Positions 1,021-22,963 of a stretch of 64,000 bases of DNA are shown here, piece by piece. The stretch is from assembly GCA_905250025.1 (NCBI GenBank), contig CAJNOJ010000314.1, positions 48,753 to 112,752 of the forward strand. The letters are read 5' to 3'. The translations under genes and the position numbers were made by a program. Position 1 is the stretch's first letter. Each line of letters starts with the position of its first letter. The notes below the pieces were generated by a model. It had not been told where the DNA came from and made no database searches. It was given only the letters and a program-made list of their open reading frames with translations. The DNA comes from Adineta ricciae (taxonomy: Eukaryota; Rotifera; Eurotatoria; Adinetida; Adinetidae).

Positions 1021-1623
1021 TATCTTTCAGCGCGCCATCAATTGTAATTGTAATGTAAAAACGAAACGAATATTTTATCACGTAAACAGAGTGCAGAAAT
1101 TCAAGTAAAATGTTACCATTTTTCAAAATTCCATAATAGACTAGTATGCCGAAACTTTGAAAACACGATTACTGTGTGAGTTGAATGTAGAGTGATGTTC
1201 AAATTCACATTCAGAGCTATTGCATATATACAAATGACGAAAGTAGCCATGAAAAACATAGCCTCAAACGTAATATCACGTTCTTTTTCTCGAAGAAACA
1301 GCCAGTGGATGTTTTATTCAAATCGAATCATAATTATTGATGAGATTTCTTCATGACGAAAACTTGAAAGGACGTGTGTGCTGATACACAAATATATTCA
1401 CACCTTCATCCTCGAATTTCGCGTTTGTCGTTTCTATCATTTTTCAGTTCTGTTATGCTGTTCAGAAAAAAAACAACTTCACGTGGTAAACGCATAGGTA
1501 AAGCAATGAATGTTTCAATGTTCTTGCGAAAGAATCACTTCAGTGATGAAATGTATTAACCTATTTAGCACATTCCTTTTCGATATTTTTCATATGCAAA
1601 TAACCATAAAGTAAAATTTGACT
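1021..1623. other. AT-rich spacer; left edge of block I near 1355
   Basis: I see no gene here. From about 1355 the sequence matches 15830 onward, including the leader of the ATP-grasp gene, so the left end of the large duplicated block falls here. To its left the two copies are unrelated. Confidence 0.6.
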
Positions 1624-2580
1624 ATGAAAGTCAAATATGTTGATATTCATGCTACTACTCCATTAAATACGTGTAATGTAATGTCAGTAGCACCGATTCG
1701 AGAACTCAATGGTGACATCATTATATGGCGTCCGTTCTTCCAAAGTCTTCGACAATCTGTTTTGGACTATCTCACCACACGCCAGTATGAAGTAAAGGAT
1801 GATTTTACGTTTCCTTACACGCCTCAAACTCCGACGTCTGATGGATTCAATAATTTATTGATCTTATACCACGAATCTTTTGATTATCAGCATCATCATG
1901 ATGAGAAAACGATGGGACTTGCCAATATTATCCCTATTCCAAATAAACACAAAGGTGAAATGGGTGAGATCACTCTCATTCGAATGCAAACCGATCGTTC
2001 AATCACGAACTTTCTCGAACGAGATGCCATTGAATATTTACTACCATTGATAAGAGCAGCGATGGTCTCTCATCCAGCATGGTTCGTTAAACTATCTGCA
2101 CAGTCAAGTAAACATGATTTTAGTATCAAAAGTGTTCAAACGGCTGAAGATGTTCTAAATGTAATCACAAATAGTCCAACTCTGTACAAAGTCGAGTGGC
2201 AACATCGAAATAAACCTACTTACATCATCCTCAAACCATGGAACTCATCGATCACCAAACAGAATGAGTTTCGATTATTCATATGGTTAAATAAAGTCAC
2301 GGCTGCTACACAACAACATTGGTATGCAGAATTAGATCACTCACAAGAATATATTGATACAGTTGTGAATACTATTAACAACTATGAACATTCACCTAAA
2401 CTTCCATCAATTTGTGTTCTTGACGTTGTTATACTAGAAGATGGGACAATGATTATTATTGAACTGAATCCATGGATCTCCTCTGGTGGTGGTCTGTTTG
2501 ACTATACAATGGACTATAAAGTACTATATGGTCTTGAAGGTGATGCAGAATTGAGACTTGCTAAAACCACAATAACATAA
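1624..2580 (+). CDS. D123/CDC123-like ATP-grasp protein, copy 1
   Basis: Single-exon 318-residue protein. The ATG at 1624 is chosen because copy 2 (16104) starts at the same codon; a TTG two codons upstream is not conserved. The C-terminal half has the D123 pattern: FVKLSAQSS near residue 155, NEFRLFIW near 217, then a hydrophobic strand with VLDVV and IIIELNPW ending in LFDY near 265-292. In known family members these acidic and Asn residues bind Mg-ATP, and CDC123 helps assemble translation factor eIF2. This protein is diverged, so the eIF2 role should not be assumed; an amide-ligase-like use of the fold is equally possible. It sits next to, and convergent with, the GNAT gene. No signal peptide or membrane segment is seen. 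Confidence 0.65.
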   Translation: MKVKYVDIHATTPLNTCNVMSVAPIRELNGDIIIWRPFFQSLRQSVLDYLTTRQYEVKDDFTFPYTPQTPTSDGFNNLLILYHESFDYQHHHDEKTMGLANIIPIPNKHKGEMGEITLIRMQTDRSITNFLERDAIEYLLPLIRAAMVSHPAWFVKLSAQSSKHDFSIKSVQTAEDVLNVITNSPTLYKVEWQHRNKPTYIILKPWNSSITKQNEFRLFIWLNKVTAATQQHWYAELDHSQEYIDTVVNTINNYEHSPKLPSICVLDVVILEDGTMIIIELNPWISSGGGLFDYTMDYKVLYGLEGDAELRLAKTTIT

Positions 2581-2958
2581 GTTTTTTTCATGAGACTCAT
2601 TTGGGAAAACAAACTTAATAAACAGGAACGAAAGTCAGATATTTATTTGTCGAGGACATGGTTGTGTATGTAATGATCAGTAGAAGGAGCTCACATATAT
2701 CATCGCCCAGGCGAAAGATAAACATCTGATATTTCTATTAGCTCGCAAATGGCACATCCGCTTGTATATGAAATATCTGCTGACTAAATCATCCGGACAT
2801 GTTTAAGATGATATTCTGTCTAGCGAGTTTATCTCAAAGACGAATCGATTCTTCTTCTTGTACGTTATTAGAAACTATTTTTTATTATTTTTACATTATG
2901 TACATGAACAAAATGGAATCAAATGTGTACAAAGACAGATGTCTCTTTATTTCGTATA
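2581..2958. other. Shared 3' region of two convergent genes
   Basis: Short intergenic stretch between the convergent ATP-grasp and GNAT genes. It is conserved in copy 2 (17061-17492), and I see no coding signal. Confidence 0.5.
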
Positions 2959-3852
2959 TCAAGCAGAACCAATGGTGTGAATCATCCAAACGGCAGGGTC
3001 AAAGTAAATTCCTACGTTGTGTTCGTGATGTATGGTAACTGGTGTAAGAGCACCGCTAACTACATACTTTCCACTGTCCGGAAATTCCATGTTCGTCCAT
3101 TTCTGCCACTGAGACACCGTTCCTTTGACAAGAACGGCACGTGGAGAAACACCTATTAGTTTGGCACCTGCCCGAAAATGCACGCGCATCCAAGGATCAA
3201 ACGGTTCTCCGTTGCCATTTTCCCAGTATGCATATGTTTCAATAGGAATCAACGGGTAATTCATCTTGAGAATCGGACGGACGTTGACGGCGAACGAATG
3301 GAAACCATGCTGTCGACTTATGTTGAGTATTGTTTTAAGAATAAGAGCACTAATACCCTTCTTCTGCATTTGAGGATTCACCATAATTGCAAAAGCGGAC
3401 AGAGCTGTAGGTCTTTTTCCAGCAGCTAGATCATCTAGTCCTAGTTGAGTAGCAGCTTCCCAGCCGGAAGGTAATGTGTTGATATTGCCGTCCCAATGTA
3501 TTGGTACTGTTAGTCCGACGCCTATAAGTTTATCTCCATCGTTATCTACGATTACTACTTGATATTCGTTCCATTCCTTGAACAGAACATCCCATGCATC
3601 ATTCGTAACAATGTCTTGCGCTAGAAACTTTGGCCATGAAATCGTATTAAGTTCTTCAATAGATGCACGGAGATCGTATCGCTCCTTTAAAGTATGAATT
3701 GTGTATCCGAATTTGTCATCCTAAAAGATAAAACGAACAAATCTTGCTGCTTTCAACTTTTGAAGAGTATCCTTTGTCTGACATCTAGATCAGAAATATG
3801 GTAGAAAACAATTTCGTCTTACTCTCGTCGCCTCGACTTGCTTGTTTGCCAT
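2959..3852 (-). CDS. Bacterial-type GNAT-family acyltransferase, copy 1 (two exons)
   Basis: Exon 1 is 3852-3823 (10 codons, MANKQVEATR). The intron is 3822-3721 with GTAAG and TTTTAG ends, and exon 2 is 3720-2959, giving 263 residues. The splice sites and frame agree in copy 2. The middle of the protein (about residues 120-150) has the GNAT acyl-CoA loop pattern, a hydrophobic strand followed by Q-x-x-G-I-S and a helix. The C-terminal part carries YPLIPIETY, PFDPWMRVHFR and GTVSQW, a combination I associate with bacterial acetyltransferase-like proteins; this is recall, not a search. Substrate unknown. Its start region faces the EFE-like gene across a 1-kb shared upstream region, which suggests divergent transcription from a common control region. 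The intron together with a bacterial-type sequence points to an old transfer. Confidence 0.65.
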
Positions 3853-4926
3853 TGTTGTTGTCTCGCGTATCTAAAATAAAAAAAGCAATTATATTTCGAT
3901 TTCCATTCCCTACGAGTTCGTCCAAGCGTAATGGTATCATCCTTAGACTTCTCAACAGGATTTGTTTATTTTCCTAAATGTTTTTAAGGACAGCTAAATA
4001 TTCTATAAAAAAAATTACATCGACCCATCGAAGTACGAGCATAAAGCTTGACTCGAAAGTTAAAAACTGTGTACAAGGGCATAGCGAGATTTTAATGAAA
4101 TGGACAAGCTAATGAACAACAACTCTATGATATTCATAGAACCATATTCCACAACTTGAAATATAAGCGCATGTTCGAGTTCAGTTCATGGAATTGTATC
4201 CAATTAAATAGAGAGCGCACGAAAAAGACGCTCCAGTTGTGTATATTTCTTATCTTACCGTACAATGCGTTCTCTATCACGTGTCAACCGTCTTTGTTAT
4301 ATAGCGGATGGTCATATGAGATTATATACGAAGGATAATGGTGGTGTGTTCTCTTTCGCGTGACCGTAGTCTCTTCTATATAGAGCGTAGCCGGGTATGT
4401 GCACTGACTGACCTTATGCGATTATAAATGAAGGTCAAGGACGATACGCCTTCCTTCATTCGACTGCATCCTCTCTATATGGAAGTATAATCATAATAGA
4501 CGTTCGTTTAAAGTAGCTAAATCAGGTAAGTTGAGTTACTTATTGAACTAAAATATTCATTCGAATGACATGCTTTGAAAGCTGATGGTATAGAACATTC
4601 TCACTGCTAATGGAATCTATTTCAATTTTTACTTATGCGACTCTTCTTCAGATTCATTGATATCGTCTTTATTTATCTTTGTTGATAGAAATCGATTAAA
4701 ATTTCGTATGCTCCACGGAAAGAAAACAAGTAAGAATAAAAGCTGGATACACAAACTGAAAGTCATTTTGTGCATAAAAATTATGAGTGTTATATTCGTC
4801 GGTCAGACATTCTACTGTGCGAAAGAAAAAGGTTCTCGTTCGAATGTCCAAGACACGAAGAACACATCTTATTCGATGATGTTACGCAGCTTTGAATCAG
4901 TGTACTTTTCAATTCTAGATTAAAAA
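3853..4926. promoter_or_regulatory. Divergent upstream region of the GNAT and EFE-like genes
   Basis: A 1.07-kb gene-free stretch between divergent genes. From about 4270 to 4450 it holds two diverged copies of a promoter-like unit, each with TTCTCT, a CACGTG-like core, CCGTCT and TATATAG. The first copy begins at 4270 and the second at 4349. In the other block the same pair is spaced 104 bases apart (18976 and 19080), so this copy has lost about 24 bases from its first unit. The TATATAG boxes are good TATA-box candidates; which gene they serve is inferred from orientation only. Confidence 0.45.
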
Positions 4927-6463
4927 ATGACTGATGATTCGAATATTGCACCAATTTCAACTGTCACTCCACGTATAGCTGATTGGTCTAATAGACTGAA
5001 CCGTATGGCAAATCTGAAAACATTCTATATTCCGCCAGTGGTTGTTGGCAACGCAGCAGATATTGAATTGGGTAAAAGTATGGTATTAGAGTGGCAGACA
5101 GAAGGAATGTTTCAAGTCGCATGTACTCCCGACGTATATACATCTTCGCAGCTGGCATTTAAAGCGTCCCGTGAATTCTTTGCACGTCCGACGTCCGAAA
5201 AGTTGTCATATGTGTCGGATCTCACCTTTGCAGGATATGTCGCTAGTGGAGAAGAATTAACAGCCGGTGAAGCTGACTCCAGCGAAATCTTTACTCTCGT
5301 TAAAGATTTGCCACTGACCGATAAACGCGTGCAAGATGGATGGCCAGGACATGGACCTGTCCCATGGCCTAGTTCTACCTTCAAAGAAGCTCTTCAGAAA
5401 TATCTACGAGAGCTTGGCTCTATTGGTGACCGTTTGTTACAACTCATTTCATTGGGGTTGGGTCTTCAAAATCTCAATTCTCTTAAATCAATAGCTACCG
5501 ATGGTTGGCATCATGCACGTCTTCTTCGATACCCTTCTACTTCCTCTCAGTCGTTACGTGGAACTGGTTCACATACAGATTATGGTTTTCTCGTCATTAT
5601 TACCCAGGACGATGCTGGTGGATTGTTTATTCGACCGCCCATCGATGGAGAAATTCGTCATCGTAATTGGCTACCTTCAGAATCCAGTGCTGGAATGTAT
5701 GAAGATTCTGAAGAATGGAACTATGTCAAACCAGTCCGTTCTACTCTAGTGGTGTTTCCAGGTGACATGTTTCAATTACTCACTGATGGTGCTCTACTCT
5801 CTACTCCTCACAAAGTACACCTTACTCAAAAAGAGAGATATAGCCTGGCATACTTTCATGAGCCGAATTTCCAACAAATTATTAAATCGCTCAACAATGT
5901 AGATAGCATGGATTTCGTGCACTATGGAGAAGTAAGCAGTAAATGAAATAGTAGTTTTATTTACTGAAAAGGGTATATAAGGAGAAAAAGTGTATTGGAT
6001 TTGATTGTAGTAGATTGAAGGTCAGCGTTAGCCTTTTCAAATAAGAGGAAGATCACATGAACAAAATACAAACTTTATGTTTACGATCTGTGCATCGAGA
6101 AAAGCATCGACGAGAAAGAATTCTAAAATTTCAATCAGGTTAAACATCCTGTGTGCCTAATCGATCATGAACCATTGCGTAAATAGCACTGATTTTAATC
6201 GCAATGTACGAAGAGATCATTAACACCCACGACGAGAACGACTTCAGTGCAAAATTTTTTTTCTTTGGTATTACTTTCATCTATTTAAATACTCACTCAT
6301 TTTTGCCGATTTTTAGCACGTTACAAATATGTTCCTTCGTGGTTATCCTGAACGCATTACGAGCAAACGTATCAACCGTGAGAATCGCATGAATACACTT
6401 GTCAAATTGAAGAAAAAGTCTATATCAGACTTCGCACGAATGCACAACGTACAAAATCGTTAG
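4927..6463 (+). CDS. Ethylene-forming-enzyme-like 2-oxoglutarate/Fe(II) oxygenase, copy 1 (two exons)
   Basis: Exon 1 is 4927-5931, the intron 5932-6316 (GTAAGC...TTTTAG), exon 2 6317-6463; 383 residues. Stopping at the in-frame stop at 5946 would lose the conserved C-terminus. The Fe(II) ligands are H216, D218 (HTDYG) and H295 (STPHKV); R304 and R198 are the 2-oxoglutarate-binding arginines. These equal bacterial EFE H189, D191, H268, R277 and R171 at a constant offset of 27. Exon 2 supplies R343 and Y345, matching EFE R316 and Y318 of the arginine/2-oxoglutarate pocket. GEELTAGE (about 109-116) and the NWLPSESSAGM loop also match. EFE converts 2-oxoglutarate to ethylene and hydroxylates L-arginine to guanidine and pyrroline-5-carboxylate. 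Differences from EFE are a 27-residue N-terminal extension, F310 replaced by Val and F278 by Tyr. Activity is not proven. Confidence 0.85.
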
Positions 6464-6802
6464 CTGCGAAAAGATATGACTTGTGACATGCAAGTAAACT
6501 AATGAAAACTGAATTCAGATTAGATCTTTCCACTAAATAAATATTCAGTTCATTCTTGAATAAAAATAAAACTGTCAAAAACGCATCATCTGTCAGACAT
6601 AAGCAGATCAAGTCACAGGATACATATGAATAGATTTCAAAATTAACCCTGTTGTGGAACATGACTTGCTTGATAAAATGAAGTGTTTCTATATGGGACA
6701 TAATTCGGAGAGATTATTTTGTTTCTACGTAGCATTTTGAATATTTATGTTCATCAAAAGAAAACTACTTTATTATCTAATCTGAGATTTAATCTAAAAA
6801 TA

Positions 6803-6955
6803 ATGGAAACGATCGACGTGATGCCTACGTCAACATGGAAGATAATTGGTTCTTTTTATAGAACTTTTCTCGTGATCATCTTGTCTGCACAGCTGAGCTT
6901 CACTGCAACTGTTTCGACAGGAGAAATATTGGTAGGTGAACGTGTATTCTTTTAG
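6803..6955 (+). CDS. Short conserved ORF, possible first exon of a membrane or secreted protein
   Basis: 50 codons starting METIDVMPTST, with one hydrophobic stretch (about residues 15-35). It recurs at 21530 with the same start and mostly conservative changes. A GTAGGT right after the hydrophobic part could be a splice donor. No family recognised, and no continuation exon was identified. It may be only a relic. Confidence 0.25.
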   Translation: METIDVMPTSTWKIIGSFYRTFLVIILSAQLSFTATVSTGEILVGERVFF

Positions 6956-7026
6956 ATATCTTTTGTAGAAAAGCTATCCTCTGGTTAAAAGCTTTTATTC
7001 GCATAAGTTCTGTATATAGTATGCTA

Positions 7027-7280
7027 ATGTTTATGTTCTTTATTCGTTCCTTGATGCGCTTGATTTGAAGAGATATGCGTGATCTAATAAGAATCTGCTA
7101 GATCGTCGACTCAAACGTGGTTCTACGAAAGGAAACGAGTCGCATATTGTTAATCGCGAAGGATCAGACATACAGAGACTATCAAACAACGTTTAAGTCG
7201 ACAATCCCACAGATTCTTATTAGATCACGCATATCTTTTCAAATCAAGCGCATCAAGGAACGAATAAAGAACATAAACAT
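7027..7280. repeat. Inverted repeat with 71-bp arms, only in block I copy 1
   Basis: The left arm (7027-7097) and right arm (7210-7280) are reverse complements with one mismatch, and pairing extends weakly inward. The spacer is about 110 bases. The matching place in the other block (near 21740) has unrelated sequence, so this is an insertion or replacement polymorphism. It looks like a foldback or MITE-type non-autonomous element; no clear target-site duplication could be fixed. Confidence 0.75.
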
Positions 7281-8309
7281 CACAATAGGAGAGTTTTCAA
7301 GCTACGAGTTCATGTCGAGTTCTTTGAGTAGGAAATTATTCGCCATCACAGTTCTTTTGAATTAGAACTGCTTAAAAGTTCTAGTTTGATGAACTAAACT
7401 GGAACTGTCGTAGGCCTATTCCGTATCAAATGGTAATATTTTTTTCGACACGAAAACGGTTGGAAAAATTTTATATAATTCTTTTGTTTCGTGATACCAA
7501 TTTCACATTGATTAAAAGCAATGAATACATCATTTTAGTGGTTATTCCTTTAAGTCGATTATAAAAATGTCCTCAACATAGGAAAGTCATAGTCTACAAA
7601 TTCGAAGCGTTGTCTTTCTGAGTATGCTCGCTGATTAATCAAAACTAGTTACATAGTGACACCATGTTTTCTAGAAGAAAATATCCGATTGAGCCATTCT
7701 GAAAGTTTTCATCATATGCTAAAAGTAAGTGATGATCTTATTACTAGACAGATTATATAGAGATAATGTTTAGAGCTTCTCACAGCAACAACGCTATAAT
7801 GTAATAAGCTTACATCACATGTTGAAAGACTAGTTGAAAATAGTACCAAAGAAATTATCTGTTAGGAGAATGGCGGAGTGTCACATCGTCATGTGTTTAT
7901 ATCTCGTGTCTAGATAATCCTTTAAGAGTGTTTTCTTCACCTATATTGACTAAAGAGGCAAAATCAAATTTTGTAAAGTAAGACGAATGATGTTTCATAC
8001 ATTCGATCTCCTTTTAGACTGTCTCTGAGTCTGCTTGTCTCAGATGAACGTCAACTGTCATGTTTGACTGTTGGCACAAAAGCAGTAAGAACGAGTGGAA
8101 CAGAGAGATTGTCTGTTAATCTTGTTTTTCAAAGTGAAAAACAATCTAAAAGTATACTGAAAAACCTGTAATGAGAAAAGGACACTTTGTACTACTTGAC
8201 GGTAAGAGTGAAGATGAAGAAAAGAGTAGCACTCCTATGTCACTCTTTTTCTGCGATGCGAGTGTTTGTTGAATAAAGAACTGTGTTGTCATAATTTAGA
8301 TTTTTCATT

Positions 8310-9311
8310 ATGTCAACATTCAGTAATCTTACGACAACGACAACGATCGCTCCTTATATTCCAACGAGCCGACCTGTTCAGTTCAGTATCTTATTAACAA
8401 TTGCAATTTTTTCCGTACCATGTTCAATTTTTGTTCTTCATCACTTCTTATCAACGAAAACGCTTTATCGCGCTGCTAACAATCATGTCATCATTCTTTT
8501 ACTTATTAGCAATTGTCTTCAAACTCTAACCGATGTACCGGGACAGCTGAGTTACTATATCTTAGGTGTAAATCGGCCTCTGACACTCAGCTATTGTTAT
8601 TACTTTTATTTCATTGATTTTTATTTATTTACAACCTGCTTTTTACTTTTGACATGGTCATCATTCGAACGGCATATTCTCATTTTCCATACGTATGTCT
8701 TCAACACACATCGAAAACGTGTGGCTTATCATTATACACCTTTGATGATTTGCGTAACTTATCCAATGATTTATTACGTTTACTTTATATTTTTCTACCC
8801 ATGTGAAAATTACTATGATGAATATACATCATACTGTGTTCCAGCTTGTTATTTGCGGACAAATGCTGTGATGGCTTTATATGAGCAGATTGCTCACGGT
8901 TTTGCATTGATGCTGCTGATTTTCATTTTTAATGTTTTACTGTTTATTCGAGTTGTTCAGCAAAAGACTCGAATGGGCAGACAAATGACGTGGAAGAAGA
9001 ATCGTAAAATGGCAGTGCAATTATTCAGCATGTGTTTCTTATTTCTTTTGACAAATGGTGGTTACTTCGTCGTTCAAATAGGACAAATGCTGTATGATCC
9101 AACTTTTGGAGTAGACTTCAGTCTATGGGCAATCCCGGTAGCTATGTGCATGCCACCACTGTTTCCTTTTGTATGTTTGAGCACTTTGGATGAGTTACAT
9201 GGAAAAGTGAGAAAAGCAATTTCGTGTTGCAATCGTTTTGCCGTAGTACCTATCATAGGCACAGAGTTACAACACTTGCCAACGACCACTTCGAGACGCC
9301 GTGATTTTTAA
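8310..9311 (+). CDS. Seven-transmembrane receptor (rhodopsin-like, diverged), copy 1
   Basis: Single exon, 333 residues. A Thr/Ser-rich N-terminus with an N-glycosylation site (NLT) precedes seven hydrophobic segments at about 23-46, 58-80, 97-118, 140-163, 192-216, 236-260 and 272-294. The end of TM3 reads ERH where class-A receptors have DRY, and the TM7 NPxxY motif is absent (PPLFPFVCL instead). A Lys/Arg-rich loop (RMGRQMTWKKNRK) lies before TM6, as in G-protein-coupled receptors. A Cys near 95 at the top of TM3 and Cys residues in the second extracellular loop could form the usual disulfide. Ligand unknown; bdelloids carry large families of such receptors. The partner copy at 22964 is nearly the same except for its C-terminus. 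Confidence 0.75.
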   Translation: MSTFSNLTTTTTIAPYIPTSRPVQFSILLTIAIFSVPCSIFVLHHFLSTKTLYRAANNHVIILLLISNCLQTLTDVPGQLSYYILGVNRPLTLSYCYYFYFIDFYLFTTCFLLLTWSSFERHILIFHTYVFNTHRKRVAYHYTPLMICVTYPMIYYVYFIFFYPCENYYDEYTSYCVPACYLRTNAVMALYEQIAHGFALMLLIFIFNVLLFIRVVQQKTRMGRQMTWKKNRKMAVQLFSMCFLFLLTNGGYFVVQIGQMLYDPTFGVDFSLWAIPVAMCMPPLFPFVCLSTLDELHGKVRKAISCCNRFAVVPIIGTELQHLPTTTSRRRDF

Positions 9312-10105
9312 AAGATGGTTGAGTACACAACTGAACTATCGATATACATTCCCTTGATGTTGTTTTTGTGAGCTTAATCAGAATACGAATCATTTGTCTT
9401 TTATATACGTGAATTCTTTTTCTTTGTATGTTGTTTATATTTATACCGTTTCCGTTTTGATGTCGTTTTTGTCAAGTACTTCGTTTACTATTCGATGTTA
9501 GTTAGAAGAAATAAATATTATCGATCAATACACTAAAGAAAGTATTCTAACTAGTATCGGACATTCGACCTTTAGACAAATACCCTACACATAATTGATC
9601 TTGATCATTTTCATGATCACTTTAATATCGATTAGAAAGTAAGTAACGTTAAACGTCAGCTCAAGAACTTGTGCTTGTAAAATATCTCTCCGCGTGAAAG
9701 AGAGCAATCGAAACAAAAGAGAAGTGCTCAGAAAATATTCACTAGTATTAACGGGATAAGCGAGAATGGGAGGGCATGAAAATGCTGAGCTAAAAGCTCT
9801 CATACGTTATGAGAGCATAAGTACAGAAATATTTACCTTACTTATCCTTTAAATGAATGCAAGCATTTCTCGCATTGTGTGTTGCAACATCCAAATCATG
9901 TCACTACAGTAACATTGCCGCTGAAAAACACGTTTGTTTCATTCATCTCTGTGCATCACGAATACAATTTTCTACTTTGACAAACGCTTCATTTTCTTTC
10001 TTCCAGAGAAAAGTTGAGTGCATTGCATTTTGAGTGGTGAAAGTACAAAGAAAATAATCTTCAATCATTTCTGCACAGAATACATTTGTTGTTAATCACA
10101 TTGAC
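9312..10105. other. Intergenic region before the small membrane-protein gene
   Basis: AT-rich and non-coding as far as I can see. The last 400 bases match both 24590-25148 and, more weakly, 1-565, so they travel with the small membrane-protein gene and probably include its promoter. The second block carries extra insertions here (about 24230-24590). Confidence 0.45.
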
Positions 10106-10906
10106 ATGAACAGTACTATGTCTTCTTCGAGACCGATTGCGAAAAAACCACCAAAACAATTAGAAATTACTAACATAACTCAACTAACCAATGCCTCAAC
10201 AACAAGAAAATCCAAGTCTGTCTTTTATATCACTTGTTTATCTTCACCAATTTTTCGACTACTTAGATGTTCCATTTCACGATGTATGTGCCTGCAACTA
10301 TTGATTCTATTGGCCCTTGTTGCATTGGCAGCTTTGGTCATTCCCATTGTTGTCATTGTACTTGGTAAGTCTACAACAAAGTACTTGTCTTACTCCCTCA
10401 TTCACTCATTACTTTATATTTCGTAGACGCGACCAATTCAACTCGTAAGTGATCGAATTGAGATATTTTCTTCTAGTAGTACATTGTATTATCTTTCGAT
10501 AGCATGCGCAGCTTCGTATAGTGATACTTTCACGTATCTTGTAGTACCAACAACAGCTCAATGCACAACTTGGCAAACATTTACAAGCAGTTTGAATTGT
10601 AAGAGTTATTCGAAAATGCACATTTATGGATCAAATGATGCCACGGGAGTGACTATAACAGATTCATTTCTCGTTACTGAGCTTGCAGCAGCTTTAAAAT
10701 ACAACGGTACCATTACTATTAATTCAAATGGAGCTATTTGGAGTATTAATACATGTTGGGGTGGTTTTAGTATAAATTCGAATGGTGTCTGCTCTTGTAA
10801 CGCAGGTTATGCTATTAGACCGTGTGTGGGAAACACCTACTGGGGAGGTATATCTGGTACAACGTGTAATTCACAGTCACAAACGTTGTCACTTTATTTT
10901 GAATGA
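10106..10906 (+). CDS. Small single-pass membrane protein with Cys-rich ectodomain, copy 1 (three exons)
   Basis: Exons 10106-10364, 10427-10444 (18-nt microexon) and 10503-10906; 226 residues. Introns are 62 and 58 nt with GTAAG donors and TAG acceptors, in phase, and are the same in the copy at 25149. The N-terminus (about 55 residues) is Ser/Lys-rich and lacks a signal peptide. One long hydrophobic segment at about 65-87 (LLILLALVALAALVIPIVV) suggests type II membrane topology. The outer part holds several Cys residues, possible N-glycosylation sites (NGT) and an EGF-like end (CWGGFSINSNGVCSCNAGY). No named family recognised. A broken third copy lies at 566-1020. Confidence 0.7.
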
Positions 10907-11598
10907 GAGTGAAGGCGTTATTTTGGGTGTGCATATTAATGAGCTAAGTATATCATACTATTTGAATGATAACTGTGTTTCATATGAAAGTATATACATA
11001 AATTATACAACATATAAACAAATAGTGTTGATATGATTAGAAAACCGAGAGAAAAGTCGGAAAGATCGTCTAATCTATCTTGCTTTTCGATTTCACTTAC
11101 AACAAACCGAACTTCTATCTATACGTCGTCCTAATTCTACAAGAGTGAACTTCAACATGCATAATACGGATGAGCGACACATAAGGAGGAAAAGCTGTGA
11201 TGGTAAAAAATTTACAGCATAATATTTTGACATTACGAAATTGTCAGACTTGATTGGAAGCAAATCCTATGTAAAGAGTTTTAATTATTGTTATATTTAT
11301 TTATTCAAACTCGAGCAAATGATGCATTCTGTTAAACTTTTAAATCAGAAAACGATGGTAAATTACATGGTTTAACTTTCGAATGCTTTTGAACTCGCTG
11401 TGATTTATCATCTGTAATACACAAACATAGAATAGCGGGAAAAGTTCATATTGATTTGACTGCAAGAAGCTGTATGTTTGATTGAACTTTTGCGCAATCG
11501 ATGGTTAAAACAGTATCGATGAGACATTTTTTTCTGAGAATACATATTTTGTTTATTGAAAATGATCACATATTATACAGATGAAAGAATTTAGTCTA
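10907..11598. other. Convergent 3' region
   Basis: Gene-free stretch between the 3' ends of the membrane-protein and P450-fusion genes. It is AT-rich. The second block carries about 300 extra bases here (about 26200-26500). No gene seen. Confidence 0.5.
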
Positions 11599-14500
11599 TC
11601 ATGTGAAAACATCAACACTGTATCGATCCTGAGAAATTTCTTCTAAAATCTTTGATGCTTCCTCTTCATCGCATTGTTTAACATCTTGAATGATCTTAAT
11701 AAAACACGTTTTCACGGATGCGCCGACTTTCCTTGCACTTCCACATGTATAAAAACGTGCACCATTACAATATAAATTCTTAATCTCATCCCGATCTTCC
11801 CATAATAAATCCTGTACATATCTTTTCTCACTGGTCGCTTGTCGAGAAAAAACAATTCGTAGTTTAACAGCGCCAAGCTTTGACCATTGATCGAGTTCAT
11901 CAAAATATAAGTTATCATCTTGCGATCGACATCCATAATAAAGAACTGTTGGTCCAACTTTTCTGCCACATACTAATTGTGCTGCTCGCTCCTGAATAAA
12001 ACCGCGAAATGGTGCAATGCCAGTTCCAGCTGCAATCAACACCATGGGTATTTTCGTATCTTCTGGCGGATGAAATCGAGCATTACTCGTTCGAACGGCA
12101 CAACTGATTCGATCACCTTCTTTCAAATTCCCTAAATAATTCGATGCTACACCAATATGCTGTCCTACTCCACTCAATGCAGGAGTGTTCAGTATATCAA
12201 TTGTCAAAGTAACAACTTCAGCATTCCACAATGGCGTTGAAGAGATGCTGTATTGTCGAACACGAAGTGATGGTAGCATGCGAAGGTATTGTGCGAATGA
12301 AAGTTCACATGATGGATATAATTCAAGTACATCCAATATACTTGCACGTTTGTTTAAAACTTCGGTTTCATATAAATTTTCACCCAAACGAAGAAGTTGT
12401 TCTTGTTCTTTTTCATTTTTACATAATATTGCTAGAATTTCGACTTGTTTTTTACTAATTGGTTGTGATAATTCTACATAACCACTGAGAATATCAAAAA
12501 CACTGATTGGATTGTTAGTTGGAAAGAAAGTACTTGTCGAGGATAGAATTCTGATTTGCGTATCTGTAGCTAAATTAAAGCGTTTGAGAACACGATAAAC
12601 AATTTCAATTGGATTGGATGGTAATATTGCAAGATAATCCCCAGTATGATAAGTTTGTCCTTTCGGAAGTTTAATTTCCAAATGTCGTATTGTCGGTACA
12701 ATCTCATTTGCTTGAACGAGAATTTTGTTTTCAAGAACAAAACCGATATCCATTGTTATCTGCCCGAAATTTCTTTTCGAATTAACAACTTCAATTGAAA
12801 GTTTCTCTTCGCTAATAACGTTTTCTTCACCCGTGCCTTTTCGTAACATTTGAAACAGATTTTCTTTCCAACTTTCAAACGCACCATAGAAATCTCCTCC
12901 AGCATCACCTTCACCAAGTTCAATAATTCGCTGACCTCCGGCATTTTCCAATAATTGATCAATATAAAGTGGTATTTTTTGATAAGTTTTTACCCAGTCA
13001 TGATGGCCAGCACCAAATATACCATAGTTTACACCTTCTAGTTTCGGTTTTGATTCTAGATAAGCAACGAATTGTTTTGCATTTTCGCATGGTTTACCTT
13101 CATACGATGCTGTAATGATGATAACAGGTTGGTCAAGAGGAAGAGAACCCACAGCAGAATCAAGAGTAGATACAGTAGCATTATAACCATATAAGGGCGC
13201 TTCGGATGCTAATGTTTCTGCAAATGATTGACATGAGCCAGAATTACTTCCAAAAAGAATGGCCATTGGTCGAAGATTTCTCGTGTCGTTCGATTTAGCT
13301 TTTTCGAACGTGTTTTCCAATTGTTTAACATCTTTTCTCAACGAAATATCAATTTGTTGTCGCGATCGAACCCGTATTTTGAAACCTTCTGGTTTAATAG
13401 TTAACGTTTGTTTAATGCGAAGATTATACGATGGATCGACAAATTCAAGGTTGAAATGTTTCAAAATAAGCGCAATTGTTAGAAGACTTTCTTGCCACGC
13501 GAAAGGTCGACCGATACAACCACGTTGACCATTGCCGAATGGTTTCCAGGCGTTCGCTGGAAGATTTTCATATCCACCGTTTAGCATACGTTCAGGAATG
13601 AACTCTTCGGGTTGATCCCAAATTTTTGGATCACGATGTAATTTATGTAAAAGGACGATGATGGAATCATCTTTTCGAATTTCATATCCACCAGGTAAGA
13701 CAACACGATCCTCTTTCGATTGTAGAATAAATCCTGGTGCCGTTGGTTGCAAACGAAGTGTTTCTTTTAAGACAGCATCGATATACTTTAATTTGTTTAA
13801 CGTGTCGATTTTTATTTCATCGTATTGATCAACTTCTGCTTGTGCTTTTTGTAATGTGTGCGGATTTTTCAGTAAATAGTACAAAGCGAACGAAAGTAGA
13901 CCGGATGTTGTTTCATGGCCAGCTACTAAAAATGTCAACATTTGGTAACGAATATTTTCATCAGATAATTGATAACCACTATCGGGATCTTTGCCGTGAA
14001 TCATACGATTGAGTAAATCTTTAACATCGTTGGGATTTTCTCGTCTTTCTTTCACAATTTCATCGCATAGATTATGAAGATGAGCTATTTCATTATAATA
14101 CCACCGTGTTGTTGTTACCATCAAAGTATTTTGTAAAGAAAGTCGTTGAGAACGTCGGCCACTTTCCATAAGTACATTGATCATTGCTTCGACAAATCGA
14201 TGCATTTTACTATGATAAAAGCTATTGAACCGATAATTGAAACTACACAAAGCAATTGTATCTAATGTCAATCGTGTAAGATTGTCACAAACGTCAATTT
14301 CTTCTCCATGGAATCGCTCCCATCGAAGGATCAGTTGAGATGCGATGTCCATCATACTAGGAAACATATCTCGAATTGCTTGTGGCCCAAAAGCGGGCAT
14401 TAGGATTTTATGAGCAAGTTTCCAATTCGGTTCCGATGTATGAGCTGTGAAAAGACCATCACCGCCTGCGTTTCGTAGTTCTGATATAGCTGCCGCCACT

Positions 14501-14709: not shown

Positions 14710-14804
14710 AACGGTCCGTTTAACGTGAGTAATCCTTCAAGAAAGATATGTTTTAAACGAGATGCACCTGAATCGTCGTTGACAGAAGAAAAAACCTTGT
14801 TGAA
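14656..14804. repeat. Contig-end overlap, identical to 33175-33323
   Basis: These 149 bases (P450 N-terminus and leader) end at a single N (14805) and recur without a visible change right after the N at 33174. The third copy (28874-29022) differs by one base I can see. This is the pattern of an unmerged overlap between contigs of one haplotype. Confidence 0.8.
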
Positions 14805-15594: not shown

Positions 15595-16103
15595 ACCGAT
15601 ATACAATTCATTTTATAATCACGAATAAATCTGAGTGAATTTTTTCGTTTGTTTTCCCAAGGGTGAGGGTGTGAACTTAATCGAATTTTGATCTCGTCCA
15701 TTAATACGATACACCAGATCGTTCGATAAAATTCTAGCTGCAATATATCGCAAGAAAATATGCCCATCGTTTCAATTCTATTCTTGAAGCTGTAGGACAA
15801 ATCTAATGACATCCTTTTAGCAGAGGATTCCAGACAGAAAATTCGAAAGAGGTGTGTGTGCTGAGGCACAAATATATTCACACCTTTACCTTCGAATTTG
15901 GCGTTTGTCGTTCCTCTTTTTTCAGTTCTGTTATGCTGTTTAGAAAAAACAACAACTTCACGTGGTAAACGCATAGGTAAAGCAGTGAAAGTTTCAATGT
16001 TGTTTCGAAAGAATCGCTCCAGTTATCAAGAATCAATCTATTCATCATCTTTCTTTTAGATATTTTTCCTTGTGCAAATAGCTGCGTCAAGTAAAATTGA
16101 ACT
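15595..16103. other. Junction zone before block I copy 2
   Basis: Contains a short telomere-like stretch (AAGGGTGAGGGTGTG, about 15658-15673) after the RdRP stop. From about 15830 it matches 1355 onward, so the second large block starts here. No gene seen. Confidence 0.5.
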
Positions 16104-17060
16104 ATGCAAGTCAAATATGTTGATATTCAGGCTACTAGTCCATTAAATACGTGTAACGTTATGTCAGTAGCACCGATCCGAGAACTCAATGATGAAATTA
16201 TCTTATGGCGTCCTTTCTTCAAAAGTCTTTCGCAATCTGTTTTAGACTATCTCATCGCACAAAAATATAGAGTAGAGGATGATTTTACGTTTCCTTACAC
16301 GCCTCAAACTCCCGCGTCCGATCGATTCAATAATTTATTGATCTTATACCACGAATCTTTTGATTATCAGCATCATCATGATGAGAAAACGATGGGATTA
16401 GCCAATATTATCCCTATTCCAAATAAACACAAAGGTGAAATGGGTGAGATTACTCTCATTCGAATGCAAACCGATCGTTCAATCACGAACTTTCTCGAAC
16501 GAGATGCCATTGAATATTTACTACCATTGATAAGAGCAGCAATGGTCTCTCATCCAACATGGTTCGTTAAACTATCTGCACAGTCAAGTAAACATGATTT
16601 CAATGTCAAAAGCGTTCAAACGGCTGAAGATGTTCTAAATGTAATTACAAATAGTCCGACTCTGTACAAAGTCGAGTGGCAACATCGAAATAAACCTACT
16701 TACATCATCCTCAAACCATGGAATTCATTGATCACTAAACAGAATGAATTTCGTTTATTCATATGGTTAAATCAAGTCACAGCGGCTACGCAACAACATT
16801 GGTATGCAGAATTAGATCATTCACAAGAATATATTGATACAGTTGTAAATACTATTAACAACTATGCACATTCACCTAAACTTCCATCAATTTGTGTTCT
16901 TGACGTTGTTATACTAGAAGATGGGACAATGATTATTATTGAACTCAATCCATGGATCTGCTCGGGTGGTGGTCTATTCGACTATGCAGTGGACTATAAA
17001 GTACTATATGGTCTTGAAGACGATGCAGAATTGAGACTTGCCAAAACCACAACAGCATAA
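16104..17060 (+). CDS. D123/CDC123-like ATP-grasp protein, copy 2
   Basis: 318 residues, the same length and start as the gene at 1624. Most differences fall in the first 70 residues; the core from FVKLSAQSS to ELNPW is almost unchanged, and the putative ATP/Mg-binding residues near the C-terminus are kept. Stronger conservation of the core than of the N-terminus suggests that the protein is under selection in both copies. The order of neighbours (GNAT, EFE-like) is the same as in copy 1. Confidence 0.65.
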   Translation: MQVKYVDIQATSPLNTCNVMSVAPIRELNDEIILWRPFFKSLSQSVLDYLIAQKYRVEDDFTFPYTPQTPASDRFNNLLILYHESFDYQHHHDEKTMGLANIIPIPNKHKGEMGEITLIRMQTDRSITNFLERDAIEYLLPLIRAAMVSHPTWFVKLSAQSSKHDFNVKSVQTAEDVLNVITNSPTLYKVEWQHRNKPTYIILKPWNSLITKQNEFRLFIWLNQVTAATQQHWYAELDHSQEYIDTVVNTINNYAHSPKLPSICVLDVVILEDGTMIIIELNPWICSGGGLFDYAVDYKVLYGLEDDAELRLAKTTTA

Positions 17061-17492
17061 GTTTTCTTATGAAGCTCATTTGATAAAAGAAACTTAATAA
17101 ACAGGAACAAAACTCAGATATTTATTTTTCGAGGACATGGTTGTGTATGTAATCATCAGTAGAAGGAGCTCACATATATCGTCGCCTAGGCGAAAGATAA
17201 ACATCTGATATTTCTATTATCTCGCGAATAGTACATCCGCTTGTATATGAAATATCAGCTGACTAAATCATCCGGTCATGTTTAAGATGATATCCTGTCT
17301 AGCGAGTTTATCTCAAAGACGTATCGTTTATTAAAATGGAGATGAAAGACAAAGTGCTCATGTCGATATGGAATTTAATCAATTCTTCTACTTGTAAGTT
17401 ATTAGAAACTATTTTTTATTATTTTTACATCATGTACATGAACAAAATGAAATCGAATGTATACAAAGGCAGATGTCCGTTTATTTCGTATA
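17061..17492. other. Shared 3' region of convergent genes, copy 2
   Basis: Matches 2581-2958 with a short insertion near 17330-17380. No coding signal seen. Confidence 0.45.
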
Positions 17493-18511
17493 TCAAACAG
17501 AACCAGTGGTGTGAATCATCCAAACGGCGGGATCAAAGTAAATTCCTAAGTTGTGTTCGTGTTGTATGGTAACTGATGTAAGAGCACCGCTAACTATATA
17601 CCTTCCACTGTCAGGGAATTCCATTTTAGTCCATTCCTGCCACTGGGATACCGTTCCTTTGACGAGAACGGCACGTGGAGAAACGCCTATTAGCTTTGCA
17701 CCTGCTCGGAAATGTACGCGCATCCAAGGATCAAATGGTTCTCCATTGTCATTTGTCCAGTATGCATATGTTTCAATAGGAATCAACGGGTAATTCATCT
17801 TGAGAATCGGACGGACGTTGACGGCGAACGAATGGAAACCATGTTGTCGACTTATGTTGAGTATTGTTTTAAGAATAAGAGCACTAATACCCTTCTTCTG
17901 CATTTGAGGGTTCACCATAATTGCAAAAGCAGACAGAGCTGTAGGTCTTTTTCCAGCAGCTAGATCATCTAGTCCTAGCTGAGTAGCAGCTTCCCAGCCG
18001 GAAGGTAATGTGTTGATATTGCCGTCCCAATGTATTGGTACTGTTAGTCCAACACCTATAAGTTTATCTCCATTGTTATCTACGATTACTACTTGATATT
18101 CGTTCCATTCCTTGAACAAAACGTCCCATGCATTGTTCGTAACGATGTCTTGCGCTAGAAACTTTGGCCATGAAATCATGTTAAGTTCTTCAATAGATGT
18201 ACGGAGATCGTGTCGATCCTTTAAAGTATGAATTGTGTATCCGAATTTATCATCCTAAAAGATAAAACAAACAAATCCTGCTGCTTTCAACTTTTGACAA
18301 GTATCCTTTGTCTCACATCTAGCTTAGAAACATAAAACAAAACTTTCATTCATCTATCTTCTGCGAGAAATCTTTGCGCCTACGATACAAGTGCTGTCGG
18401 GCTTTGAGTTGAATATGGTTTCAATAATCAATGATCATTCGAAAACGATTGCAGCAGAACAAGAAAAGCATTTCGTCTTACCCTCGTCGCCTCGACTTGC
18501 TTGTTTGCCAT
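17493..18511 (-). CDS. Bacterial-type GNAT-family acyltransferase, copy 2 (two exons)
   Basis: Exon 1 is 18511-18482 (MANKQVEATR), the intron 18481-18255, exon 2 18254-17493; 263 residues. Reading frame and splice sites match copy 1, but the intron is 227 nt instead of 102 because of an extra stretch of about 125 bases. Without the small first exon one would wrongly start at an internal Met (18179) that copy 1 lacks. The GNAT core and the C-terminal YPLIPIETY, PFDPWMRVH and GTVSQW motifs are retained. It faces the EFE-like gene across about 1.3 kb. Confidence 0.65.
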
Positions 18512-19787
18512 TGTTGTTGTCTCGTGTGTCTAAAACAAAAAAGCAATTATATTTCGATTTCCATTCCCCACGAGTTCGTCCAAGCGTAATGGTATCACAC
18601 TTTATCTTCTCAACAGAATTTGATTGTTTTTCTTAATGTTTTCAAGGGTAACTAAGTATTCTGTAAAAAGTTACATCGACCCATCGAAGCAGGAGCATAA
18701 AACTTGACCCGAAAGTTGAAAACTGTATACAAGGACATAACACGATTTTTTTAATTAAATGGACAAGCCAAATGAACCAGTAACTGTATGATATTCATAG
18801 AACCATCTTTCACAACTTGAAATATAAATCCATGATCTTTCGAAAAATAATGCGCATATTCGAGTTCAGTTCATGGAATTGTATCCAATTAAATAGAGAA
18901 TTCACGAAAAAGACGCTCCAGTTGCGTAGATTTATTATCTTACCGTAGTTGTATATAGAAAACAAGAACAATGCGTTCTCTATCACGTATCAACCGTCTT
19001 TCTTATATAGCGGATAGCCATCATTACATATGCACTGAATGGTCGTATGAGATTATATACGAAGGACAATGATGGCGTGTTCTCTTTCACGTGACCGCCG
19101 TCTCTTCTATATAGAGCGTAACTGGGTATCTGCACTGACTGACCTTATACGATTATAAATGAAGGACAAGGATGATACGCCTTCTTTCATTCGCCTACAT
19201 TCTCTCTATATGAAGTATAATCATAATAGACGTTTGTTTAAAGTAGCTAAATCAGGTAAGTTGCGTTACTTATTGAACTAAAATATCAAATCAAATGATG
19301 TGCTTTGAAAGTTGATGGTATAGAATATTCTCACTGCTAATGGAATCTATTTCAATTTTTACTTATGCGACTCTTCTTCATTAACACTCTGTTTTTGTCA
19401 TACCGAGTCTCCCAGACACACGTGTAGGTACCTCTGTTTTATACTTTCGTGGTATTTCTTCTTAATAGTTTGAGATTCATTGATATCGTCTTTGTTGATT
19501 TTTGTTGATAGAAATCGATTGAAATTTCGTATACTCCACGGAAAGAAAACAAGTAAGAATAAAAGTTGGATACACAAACTGAAACTCATTTTGTGAAGTT
19601 CTGAGAATTTGTCAGTGTAATTTACTTTTTGTGCATAAAAATTATAAGTGTTATTCGTCGGTCAGACTTTCTGCTGTGCGAAAGAAAAAGGCTCTCGTTC
19701 GAATGTCCAAGACGCAAAGAACACATCTTATTCCATGATGTTACACAGTTCTGAATCAGTGTACTTTTTTAATTTTAGATTAAGAAA
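18512..19787. promoter_or_regulatory. Divergent upstream region, copy 2, with full-length 104-bp tandem repeat
   Basis: Two units, starting at 18976 and 19080, each carry TTCTCT, a CACGT core, CCGTCT and TATATAG, then GCACTGA and an ATTATA-AAGGACAA tail. This is the fuller version of the repeat at 4270-4450. A segment near 19390-19470 is absent from the first block. The position between divergent genes and the conservation of the TATA-like elements support a promoter role. Confidence 0.45.
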
Positions 19788-21189
19788 ATGGCTGGTGATT
19801 CGAATATTGCACCAGTTTCAACTGTTACTCCACGTGCAGCTGATTGGTCTAATAGACTGAATCGTATCGCAAATCTGAAAACATTTCATATCCCGCCAGT
19901 GGTTGTTGGCAATGCAGCAGATATTAAGCTGGGTAAAAGTATGGTATTAGAGTGGCAGACAGAAGGAATGTTTCAAGTCGCATGTACTCCCGACGTATAT
20001 ACATCTTCACAGTTGGCATTTGAAGCTTCCCGTGAATTCTTTGCACGTCCGACGTCCGAAAAGTTGTCATATGTGTCGGATCTCACCTTTGCAGGATATA
20101 TCGCTAGTGGAGAAGAATTAACAGCAGGTGAGGCTGACTCCAGCGAAATCTTTACTCTCGTTAAAGATTTGCCGCTGACCGATAAACGCGTGCAAGATGG
20201 ATGGCCAGGACATGGACCTGTCCCATGGCCTAGTTCTACCTTCAAGGAAGCTCTTCAGAAATATCTACGAGAGCTTGGCTCTATTGGTGACCGCCTGTTA
20301 CAACTCATTTCATTGGGATTGGGTCTTCAAAATCTTAATGCTCTTAAATCAATAGCTAACGATGGTTGGCATCATGCACGTGTTCTTCGATACCCTCCTA
20401 CTTCCTCTCAGTCGTCGCGTGGAACTGGTTCACATACCGATTATGGTTTTCTCGTCATTATTACCCAGGACGACGCTGGCGGATTGTCTATTCGACCACC
20501 TATCAATGGAGAGATTCGTAATCGTAATTGGCTACCCTCAGAATCCAGTGCTGGAATGTATGAAGATTCTGAAGAATGGAACTATGTCAAACCAGTCCGT
20601 TCTACTCTAGTGGTGTTTCCAGGTGACATGTTTCAATTACTCCCCCATACTACTCTACTCTCTACCCCTCACAAAGTACACCTTACTCAAAAAGAGAGAT
20701 ATAGTCTGGCATACTTTCACGAACCGAATTTCCAGCAAATTATTAAGCCGTTCAACAATGCAGATAGCATGGATTTCGTGCACTATGGAGAAGTAAGTAG
20801 TGAATGAAATAGTATATAGTTTTCTTTACTGAAGAGGGTATATAAGGAGGAAACGTGTGCGCGGTTTGATTGTAGTAGATTGAAAGTCAGCGTGAGTCTT
20901 TTCAACCAAGAGGAAAATCATGTAAACAATCATCTGTGCATGGAGAAATGCACCGATGAGAACGACTTCAGTGCAAAAATCTTCTTTTCTTTGCTATTAT
21001 TTTCATCTATTTAAATACTGACTCGTTTTTGTCGATTTTTAGCACGTCACAAATATGTTCCTTCGTGGTTATCCTGAACGCATTACGAGCAAACGTATCA
21101 ACCATGAGAATCGCATGGATACACTTGTTAAATTGAAGACAAAGTCTATATCAAACTTCGCACGAATGCACAACGTACGAAATCGTTAG
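19788..21189 (+). CDS. Ethylene-forming-enzyme-like 2-oxoglutarate/Fe(II) oxygenase, copy 2 (two exons)
   Basis: Exon 1 is 19788-20792, the intron 20793-21042 (GTAAGT...TTTTTAG), exon 2 21043-21189; 383 residues. All metal ligands (H216, D218, H295), the 2-oxoglutarate arginines (R198, R304) and the exon-2 Arg/Tyr pair (R343, Y345) are kept. The intron is about 135 bases shorter than in copy 1, while both exons have exactly the same length, which strongly supports the two-exon model. Most substitutions are at the N-terminus and in the loop before the distal His (LLPHTTLL here, LLTDGALL in copy 1). Confidence 0.85.
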
Positions 21190-22963
21190 CTGCGAAAAGA
21201 TCTGACTTATGACATGCAAGTAAACTAATGAAAACTGAATTCAGATTAGATCTTTTCACTAAATAAATGTTTAATTCGTTCTTGAATAAAAATAAAACTG
21301 TCAAAAACGCGTCATCTGTCAAATATAAGCAGATCAAGTCACAGGATATATACGAATAGATTTCAATGTTAACCCTGTTGTACAAGATGACTTGCTCGAT
21401 GAAATGAAGTGTTTCTATATGAGATATAATCCGTAGAGACTATTTTGTTTCTATTGTAGCATTTTGTATATTAATGTACATCAAAGGAAAGCTACTTTAT
21501 GATCTAATCTGCGATTCAATCTAAAAATAATGGAAACGATCGACGTAATGCCTACGTCAACATGCGAGATAATTAGTTTTTTTTATAGAACTTTTCTCGT
21601 GATCATTTTGACTACACGGATGAGTTTCACTGCAACTGTTTCAACAGGACAAATATTGGTATATGAACGTGTATTCTTTCAGATATCTTTTGTAGAAAAA
21701 CTATCCTCTAGTTAAAAGTTTTTACTCGCATAAGTTCTCTATAGTATGCTAGTATTTTGATCAGCATTAGTTTCTAAGTAGCTGAAAAATGAATTGACAA
21801 CATGATACATGCACACATATATATTTCATGTTAATGATTCGATAGACCAAATAAACCAAAAATAGACAGAGAAATAATTATCCTCTGACGTCTTTCTCAA
21901 CAAAAAAGTAGATCAGTGTGAAAATAGTACCACTATACAAAAAACTATACTTAAATGAATTTCCGTCCATAAAAATAATTCCGTATCGAATGGTAGTATT
22001 TTTATTGATGGGAAAACTTGTATATAATTCTTTTGTTTTGTGATGCCAACTTCACATTGATAAAAAGCAATTAATACATCATTTTTGTGGTTATTCTTTT
22101 TCAGTTACGCCTTTAAGTCGATTATAAAATGTCCTCAACATAGGAAAGTCATAGTCTACAATTAAGATTGTACTGTTTTATTTTATCAGTCATCTTCTAT
22201 TTTTACTAAGCAATGGAATTTATCGCTAATTTGTAATGTTTGCTGCTTCGTCAACAATCGAAGCGTTGTCTTTCTGAGTATGCTCGCCGATTAATCAAAA
22301 CTAGTTACATAGTGACACTCTGTTTTCCAGAAGAAAACATCCGATTGAGCCATTTTGAAAGCTTTTGTCATATGCTAAAAGTGAGTGATGATCTTATTAC
22401 TAGACAGATTATATAGAGATAATGTTTAGAGCTTCTCACAGCAATAACGCTATAATGTAATAAGCTTACATCACATGTTGAAAGACTAGATAAATAAAGT
22501 ACCAAAGAATTTGTCTGTTAGGAGAGTGGTGGAATGCAACATCGTCATGTGTTTATATCGCGTGTCTAGATAATCCTTTAAGAGTGTTTTCTTCATCTCT
22601 ATTAACTGAAAGGACAAAGTCAAATTTTGTAAAGCAAGACGAACGACGTTTCATACACTCGATCTCCTTTTAGATTGTCTCTGAGTGTGTTTTTCTCAGA
22701 CAAACGTCAACTGTCATGTTTGACTACTCACACAAAAGCAGTAAGAACGAGTAGAACAGAGAGATTGTCTGTTAATCTTGTTTTTCAAGGGGAAAAACAA
22801 TCTAAAAGTATACTGAAAAACCTATGATGAGAAAATGACACTTTGCAATACTTGACGGTAAGAGTCAAGATGAAGAAGAATAGCACTCCTATGTCACTCT
22901 TTTTTTGTGATGCGGATGTTTGTTGAATAAAGAACTCTGTCGTCATAATTTAGATTTTTCATT
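21190..22963. other. Intergenic region, copy 2
   Basis: Matches 6464-8309 except near 21745-21975, where unrelated sequence replaces the inverted repeat and following stretch of copy 1, and at an additional segment near 22160-22260. The rest is conserved up to the receptor start. Confidence 0.5.
21530..21715 (+). CDS. Short conserved ORF, copy 2
   Basis: Starts METIDVMPTST like the ORF at 6803 and keeps its hydrophobic segment, but runs 11 codons longer because the first stop is lost. No family recognised; it could be a relic or a first exon. Confidence 0.25.
   Translation: METIDVMPTSTCEIISFFYRTFLVIILTTRMSFTATVSTGQILVYERVFFQISFVEKLSSS

Follow-up and report, generated by a model that had tools for sequence, protein, structure and literature searches.

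An ethylene-forming-enzyme-family oxygenase of probable bacterial descent, tandemly duplicated and predicted to be spliced, with an altered 2-oxoglutarate pocket in the bdelloid rotifer Adineta ricciae

The ethylene-forming enzyme (EFE), an Fe(II)/2-oxoglutarate (2OG) oxygenase, has been described from some bacteria and fungi (PMC10467617, PMC11025135), and three further sources apply the name, as far as their available text goes, to plant enzymes only (PMC11065753, PMC13106811, PMC11203926). In the bdelloid rotifer Adineta vaga, 49 2OG-Fe(II) oxygenase genes have been counted, 20 of which were called horizontal and some over-expressed after rehydration or radiation; EFE is not named in the available part of that account (PMC10809525). 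In the accessible portions of the open-access literature on EFE, ethylene and horizontal transfer in rotifers, no EFE-family gene was found to be reported from an animal. Here a stretch of 64,000 nucleotides of Adineta ricciae (assembly GCA_905250025.1, contig CAJNOJ010000314.1, positions 48,753 to 112,752; "the window" below) was analyzed, which carries two tandem copies, A and B, of a gene related to EFE. The sequence suggests that they probably represent a functional, spliced bdelloid member of the family, which came from bacteria, gained an intron and, in the sequences termed Adineta-type here (copies A and B and the A. vaga relative), acquired an altered 2OG pocket.

The closest described system is PK2 EFE of Pseudomonas savastanoi (PDB 5v2y, 6vp4), which shares with the rotifer protein its fold, 53% of residues, the iron ligands, the arginines binding the 2OG carboxylate and the L-arginine (L-Arg) site including R316 and Y318 (PK2 numbering unless stated). 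The PK2 gene has no intron, whereas both window copies have one, together with Y175, T186, I198, S279, V310 and G317. Among PDB chains, PK2 EFE scores 414 bits against the window protein, the EFE of Penicillium digitatum Pd1 (PDB 9eir, 9eis) 353 bits and the next chain (9ovh) 98.5; in Pd1 EFE, residue 317 is N and the N-terminus targets the protein to mitochondria (PMC12060275). The PK2 variants A198V and A198L carry a bulky aliphatic residue at 198, comparable to I in the window copies and V in A. vaga, but they are laboratory single mutants, and Adineta-type rotifers add Y175, T186 and S279. The non-EFE enzymes PaIPNS (6jyv) and Anc357 (9ovh) resemble the rotifer protein in Y175 and S279 and have L198 in place of its I or V; they also have K for R316, and a short loop replaces the E215 loop in Anc357, whereas the rotifer protein keeps R316 and E215 (PMC12329707). 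Plant homoarginine-6-hydroxylases (Din11), likened to the rotifer protein through their published description, are guanidine-giving 2OG oxygenases with Y at the F175 position, but they are only 18-19% identical to EFEs and have T for R316 (PMC12329707).

The two copies are laid out as follows:

4927..5931, + strand: copy A exon 1, 1005 nt, EFE-like 2OG oxygenase residues 1-335
5932..6316, + strand: copy A intron, 385 nt, phase 0, GTAAGC...TTTTTAG, predicted to be spliced, with sites matched in copy B
6317..6463, + strand: copy A exon 2, 147 nt including the stop, C-terminal 48 residues with R343 and Y345 (PK2 R316 and Y318)
19788..20792, + strand: copy B exon 1, its protein 93% identical to that of copy A exon 1
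20793..21042, + strand: copy B intron, 250 nt
21043..21189, + strand: copy B exon 2, from frame and profile match

Read without splicing, copy A passes the donor GTAAGC at 5932 and ends at an in-frame stop at 5944-5946. It had been predicted that the EFE-like oxygenase is completed by a second exon, that the GTAAG donor joins this exon at 6317 to supply R343 and Y345, and that the second copy has the same exon lengths and another intron length; frame and homology agree with all of this. Both copies show GT-AG borders, a frame kept across the junction and a second exon homologous to the family C-terminus, and the predicted spliced product has 383 residues in each; the exons are identical in length and align without gaps, while the introns differ by large insertions or deletions. 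Spliced copy A matches PK2 EFE (5v2t) with an E value of 4.5e-123. When the 2747 six-frame fragments of the window were compared with a profile of bacterial EFE C-termini (PK2 309-343), the profile matched 6317-6460 (E 5.9e-16) and 21043-21186 (E 2.9e-15), compared with E 2 for the next best fragment and E 0.63 for the best match in reversed fragments. M313, F314, R316 and Y318 are encoded by exon 2, and in Pd1 EFE the C-terminal helices help form the L-Arg site (PMC12060275). By homology, the second exon is real.

This exon is absent from the rotifer gene models examined, namely P0001 (339 residues, the unspliced frame of copy B), P0002 (358 residues, with another C-terminus), P0003 (353 residues) and the partial P0032. 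The A. vaga model P0002 (I4U23_005040) ends GEKCFTKRFSH..., unlike exon 2; the C-terminus of this public model after GE may be wrong and lack the arginine-site exon. In P0003 the same residue is followed by GEVGG; judged from the protein sequence, this would be compatible with a GT donor at that point. The 48-residue exon 2 peptide as query yielded no candidate second exon in other rotifers, and no NCBIfam family matched exon 1 or P0001-P0004 at E 0.01.

The iron ligands H189, D191 and H268 and the arginines R171 and R277 are kept in both window copies, in copy A as H216, D218, H295, R198 and R304, just where they had been placed by the original prediction. The constant offset of 27 to PK2 that it proposed holds downstream of a one-residue insertion; upstream the offset is 26 (E84 is E110 and T86 is T112). 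Both copies also keep the L-Arg site residues E84, T86, D91, M313, F314, R316 and Y318, with C317 changed to G and V85 to L, as well as A281 and F283, and E215 on the long beta-11 loop is E in all five rotifer rows shown. The 2OG pocket is different. Adineta-type sequences carry F175Y, I186T, A198I (V in A. vaga) and A279S (Y202, T213, I225 and S306 in copy A), so the hydrophobic, roomy EFE pocket formed by F175, I186, A198 and A279 is not found in them; both window copies have F310V as well. P0003 has this pocket at all four positions, and P0032 at the three that it covers (175, 186 and 198).

How unusual these changes are was assessed in a census of 213 non-rotifer rows. It comprised PK2, 162 listed proteins and 50 genome loci out of 55, the remaining five (L015, L045, L048, L058 and L060) having been dropped for stops or frame. 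F175 and I186 are invariant (213/213 each) and A198 is present in 212 of 213 rows, while at position 279 A occurs in 149 rows, T in 58 and S in six. The sole row without A198, L055 from Streptomyces sp. SID12488, has E at 198 and no H at 268, which leaves it one iron ligand short; it may be broken. Among 106 exon-1 positions conserved to at least 98%, five (33, 35, 175, 186 and 198) differ in each of the three Adineta-type rows, of which position 35 is changed in both Rotaria-type rows too and position 33 in one of the two. The remaining three, specific to Adineta, all fall within 15 conserved active-site and 2OG-pocket positions, a list resting on published contact residues given in the available text of PMC9101411 and PMC12329707 (P 0.002; P 0.013 at 97% conservation, where positions 203 and 246 join).

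Because ordinary 2OG oxygenases have Y175, a bulky aliphatic residue at 198 and S279 (the rotifer loci L003 and L004, Anc357 and PaIPNS), the Adineta-type pocket is shifted towards the ordinary state. In PK2, the A198V variant turns most of its 2OG into 3-hydroxypropionate, hydroxylates a little L-Arg and releases only traces of ethylene, whereas A198L yields 0.435 3-hydroxypropionate for each 2OG and far less ethylene (PMC12060275); A198 variants that form less ethylene, and form 3-hydroxypropionate, were also described in PMC10467617. The reconstructed ancestor Anc124, with Y, T and S at 175, 198 and 279, gives mainly succinate and almost no ethylene (PMC12329707). The original prediction, that the protein may turn over arginine and 2OG to give ethylene or guanidine, thus fares unevenly: the arginine site is kept, and guanidine and 1-pyrroline-5-carboxylate (P5C) are possible products, while ethylene formation is rendered less probable by the replacement of F175, I186 and A198, given that A198V and A198L cut ethylene in PK2.

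The nearest named matches, among the best 120 of 1152, came from two bdelloids: A. vaga, at 74% over 90% of the query, and Rotaria sp. Silwood1, at 71% over 72%; with P0003 as query, no further recognizable rotifer sequence appeared among the best 120 of 1025. "Rotaria-type" as applied to P0003 is a label taken from its place in the tree beside P0032 alone. The tree (76 rows, LG+C20, 350 columns, without fungal rows) was rooted on a single distant outgroup, L003, which has a long branch. P0001 (the copy B frame), the partial L057 and L004-L006 were dropped beforehand, the longest frames taken at L005 and L006 being unrelated repeat proteins. After 4-mer thinning to 88 rows (24 loci and 64 proteins), the tree took in all of these loci and the first 45 of the proteins, including P0004-P0008, and 46 proteins added later enter only the census. 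The five rotifer rows form one clade (100/100) joined to P0004/P0008, two proteins encoded on short contigs (100/98); the rows around them, where named, are bacterial. They thus lie inside the EFE clade, apart from other 2OG oxygenases, and are nested in non-animal sequences while sitting on a rotifer contig. An ordinary animal 2OG oxygenase was rejected, since the distant matches L003 and L004 in the assembly reach 59 and 37.5 bits against 766.

Because the five rotifer sequences form a single clade inside EFEs that are bacterial where named, one transfer from a bacterial donor before the Adineta-type/Rotaria-type split is most likely. The proposal of an old transfer from bacteria or fungi is therefore upheld as to horizontal origin, on the bacterial side. 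The bit scores, which are no tree test, do not point to a fungal donor: like the window protein, P0003 scores higher with PK2 (392 bits) than with Pd1 (349). With the EFE-clade proteins P0111 and P0145 as queries, the fungal chain ranks last of ten PDB chains. That the transferred gene gained an intron agrees with the continuous, intronless bacterial frames.

Exon 1 is under constraint. Between A and B it differs by a nonsynonymous divergence (dN) of 0.035 and a synonymous divergence (dS) of 0.156 (NG86), and of the 22 aligned residue differences two lie within the set of 116 best-conserved positions out of 343 (P 0.007). Function has probably been kept.

Family, exon 2, phylogeny, pocket changes and the constraint on exon 1 are read from sequence, from which we infer in vivo splicing and products. 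An EFE gene would have been acquired from a bacterium before Adineta-type and Rotaria-type sequences parted, and an intron gained just ahead of the part encoding the C-terminal region that binds arginine. The 2OG pocket of the Adineta-type lineage would then have been altered at EFE-invariant positions towards ordinary 2OG oxygenases, with the iron ligands, the two 2OG-carboxylate arginines and the main L-Arg site retained. Thus, 2OG and L-Arg would bind as in EFE, the bulkier pocket would disfavor the fragmentation that gives ethylene, and flux would pass to C5 hydroxylation of L-Arg (guanidine, P5C and succinate) and/or 3-hydroxypropionate, with ethylene in trace amounts at most. It is quite likely that the protein is an L-Arg/2OG oxygenase in which ethylene formation has been largely lost; guanidine with P5C and 3-hydroxypropionate are both likely products, with no firm order between them. 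More tentatively, and with a good deal less confidence, the Adineta-type enzyme might be a natural version of the A198V/L switch (3-hydroxypropionate and/or guanidine, not ethylene), while the Rotaria-type enzyme, keeping the ethylene pocket, may be an animal source of ethylene.

Several points weigh against this interpretation. Anc124 differs from PK2 at many further sites, and F310V is tied to a higher ethylene share in the ancestor Node 384 (PMC12329707). The effect of A198I, alone or combined with F175Y and I186T, may be compensated. 3-Hydroxypropionate or succinate, not guanidine, may dominate, because PK2 A198V keeps little L-Arg hydroxylation. A279S alone means little, since S (six rows) and T (58 rows) occur at this position among non-rotifer sequences. 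The pocket tests were post hoc, devised after the changes had been seen, and with all five changes and a first, slightly different list of 103 positions the enrichment was weaker (Fisher P 0.017). Finally, the seven differences between the copies in exon 2 (five nonsynonymous and two synonymous) are too few to show constraint.

Other explanations account for parts of the evidence. A new substrate may have replaced L-Arg, so that the protein works as a conventional hydroxylase on a related compound, guanidino or otherwise; this would suit a 2OG pocket like that of ordinary 2OG oxygenases, the changes F310V and C317G around the L-Arg site and the suggestion that ancestral EFEs, being uncoupled, may have acted on a substrate yet to be identified (PMC12329707), but it is rather unlikely given that E84, T86, D91, M313, F314, R316 and Y318 are all kept. 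Less probable again is an ordinary EFE in an animal, with ethylene still the main product and pocket changes compatible with it. Both copies do retain the iron ligands together with E84, T86, R171, E215, R277, A281, F283, M313, F314, R316 and Y318, and V310 also occurs in Node 384, an ancestor that prefers ethylene; against this stand the trace or greatly reduced ethylene of PK2 A198V/L and the near-invariance of A198, F175 and I186 outside rotifers.

Decay, with exon 1 alone or nothing expressed, would be consistent with the rotifer models without exon 2 and with a block of changes at residues 286-289 of copy B. It is nevertheless very unlikely, as frame, splice sites and length are kept in both copies, exon 1 dN/dS is well below 1, differences avoid conserved sites, and the gene is present in A. 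vaga and Rotaria-type sequences too. Bacterial contamination of the assembly, to which the bacterial identity of the nearest named non-rotifer relatives might point, is hardly credible and was rejected: the gene has an intron, its G+C content at third codon positions (0.33) is like that of four neighboring open reading frames (0.24-0.37), the contig of 112,752 bases also carries G-protein-coupled receptor genes, and a relative sits on an 18-Mb A. vaga contig. The reading of a functional, bacterially derived enzyme with an altered pocket is thus preferred.

The two rotifer lineages provide a natural test of why an EFE yields ethylene, as the pocket is kept in Rotaria-type and changed in Adineta-type sequences at positions that the EFE field probes by mutation and ancestral reconstruction. 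The rotifer gene models examined miss the arginine-site exon. If active, the enzymes would bring guanidine, 3-hydroxypropionate or ethylene into the chemistry of animals.

Within the assembly (130 Mb, 1033 contigs), two EFE genes were found, both within the window, plus four far weaker matches. One of the latter, L003 (G000 C67:296970-297674), is a rotifer 2OG oxygenase near PaIPNS and Anc357 (369 and 426 bits) and possibly represents a second acquired oxygenase family. Other features of the locus are:

1358..13515, + strand: duplication unit 1, carrying copy A, aligned pieces 83-93% identical to 15837-28872 in window self-BLAST
15837..28872, + strand: duplication unit 2, carrying copy B, from window self-BLAST
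4906..4918, + strand: acceptor-like TTTTCAATTCTAG, 8 nt upstream of the copy A start codon, a candidate acceptor for trans-splicing or for an intron in the 5' untranslated region
6536-6541, 6559-6564 and 6565-6570, + strand: AATAAA polyadenylation-signal-like hexamers of copy A, from sequence

Copy B has a T-rich stretch ending in AG at the corresponding place, 9 nt upstream of its start codon, and matching AATAAA hexamers within 21262-21296. A 23-base pattern of a bdelloid spliced leader, searched with at most two mismatches, occurs at 44 sites in the assembly (none for the reversed-pattern control), which speaks for a rotifer origin of the DNA, and the exact 25-base pattern at none. These sites often form opposite-strand pairs about 150 bases apart (contigs C6, C8, C77, C99 and others).

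Most of the window consists of four separate tandem block pairs whose pieces are 83-96% identical (1358-13515/15837-28872, 28874-33173/33175-37216, 39516-41669/43212-45347 and 46271-50333/56547-60595); they may be true tandem duplications or haplotypes placed end to end by the assembler. An ATP-grasp protein (D123 / R2K type) is duplicated along with the oxygenase (1615-2580 and 16101-17060, both + strand), the first copy giving no NCBIfam match. At 11602-14736 (- strand), a cytochrome P450 is fused in a single frame to a flavodoxin/FAD/NAD reductase, the layout of self-sufficient P450s, and its duplicate at 26943-28887 (- strand) shows only reductase parts, in two overlapping frames.
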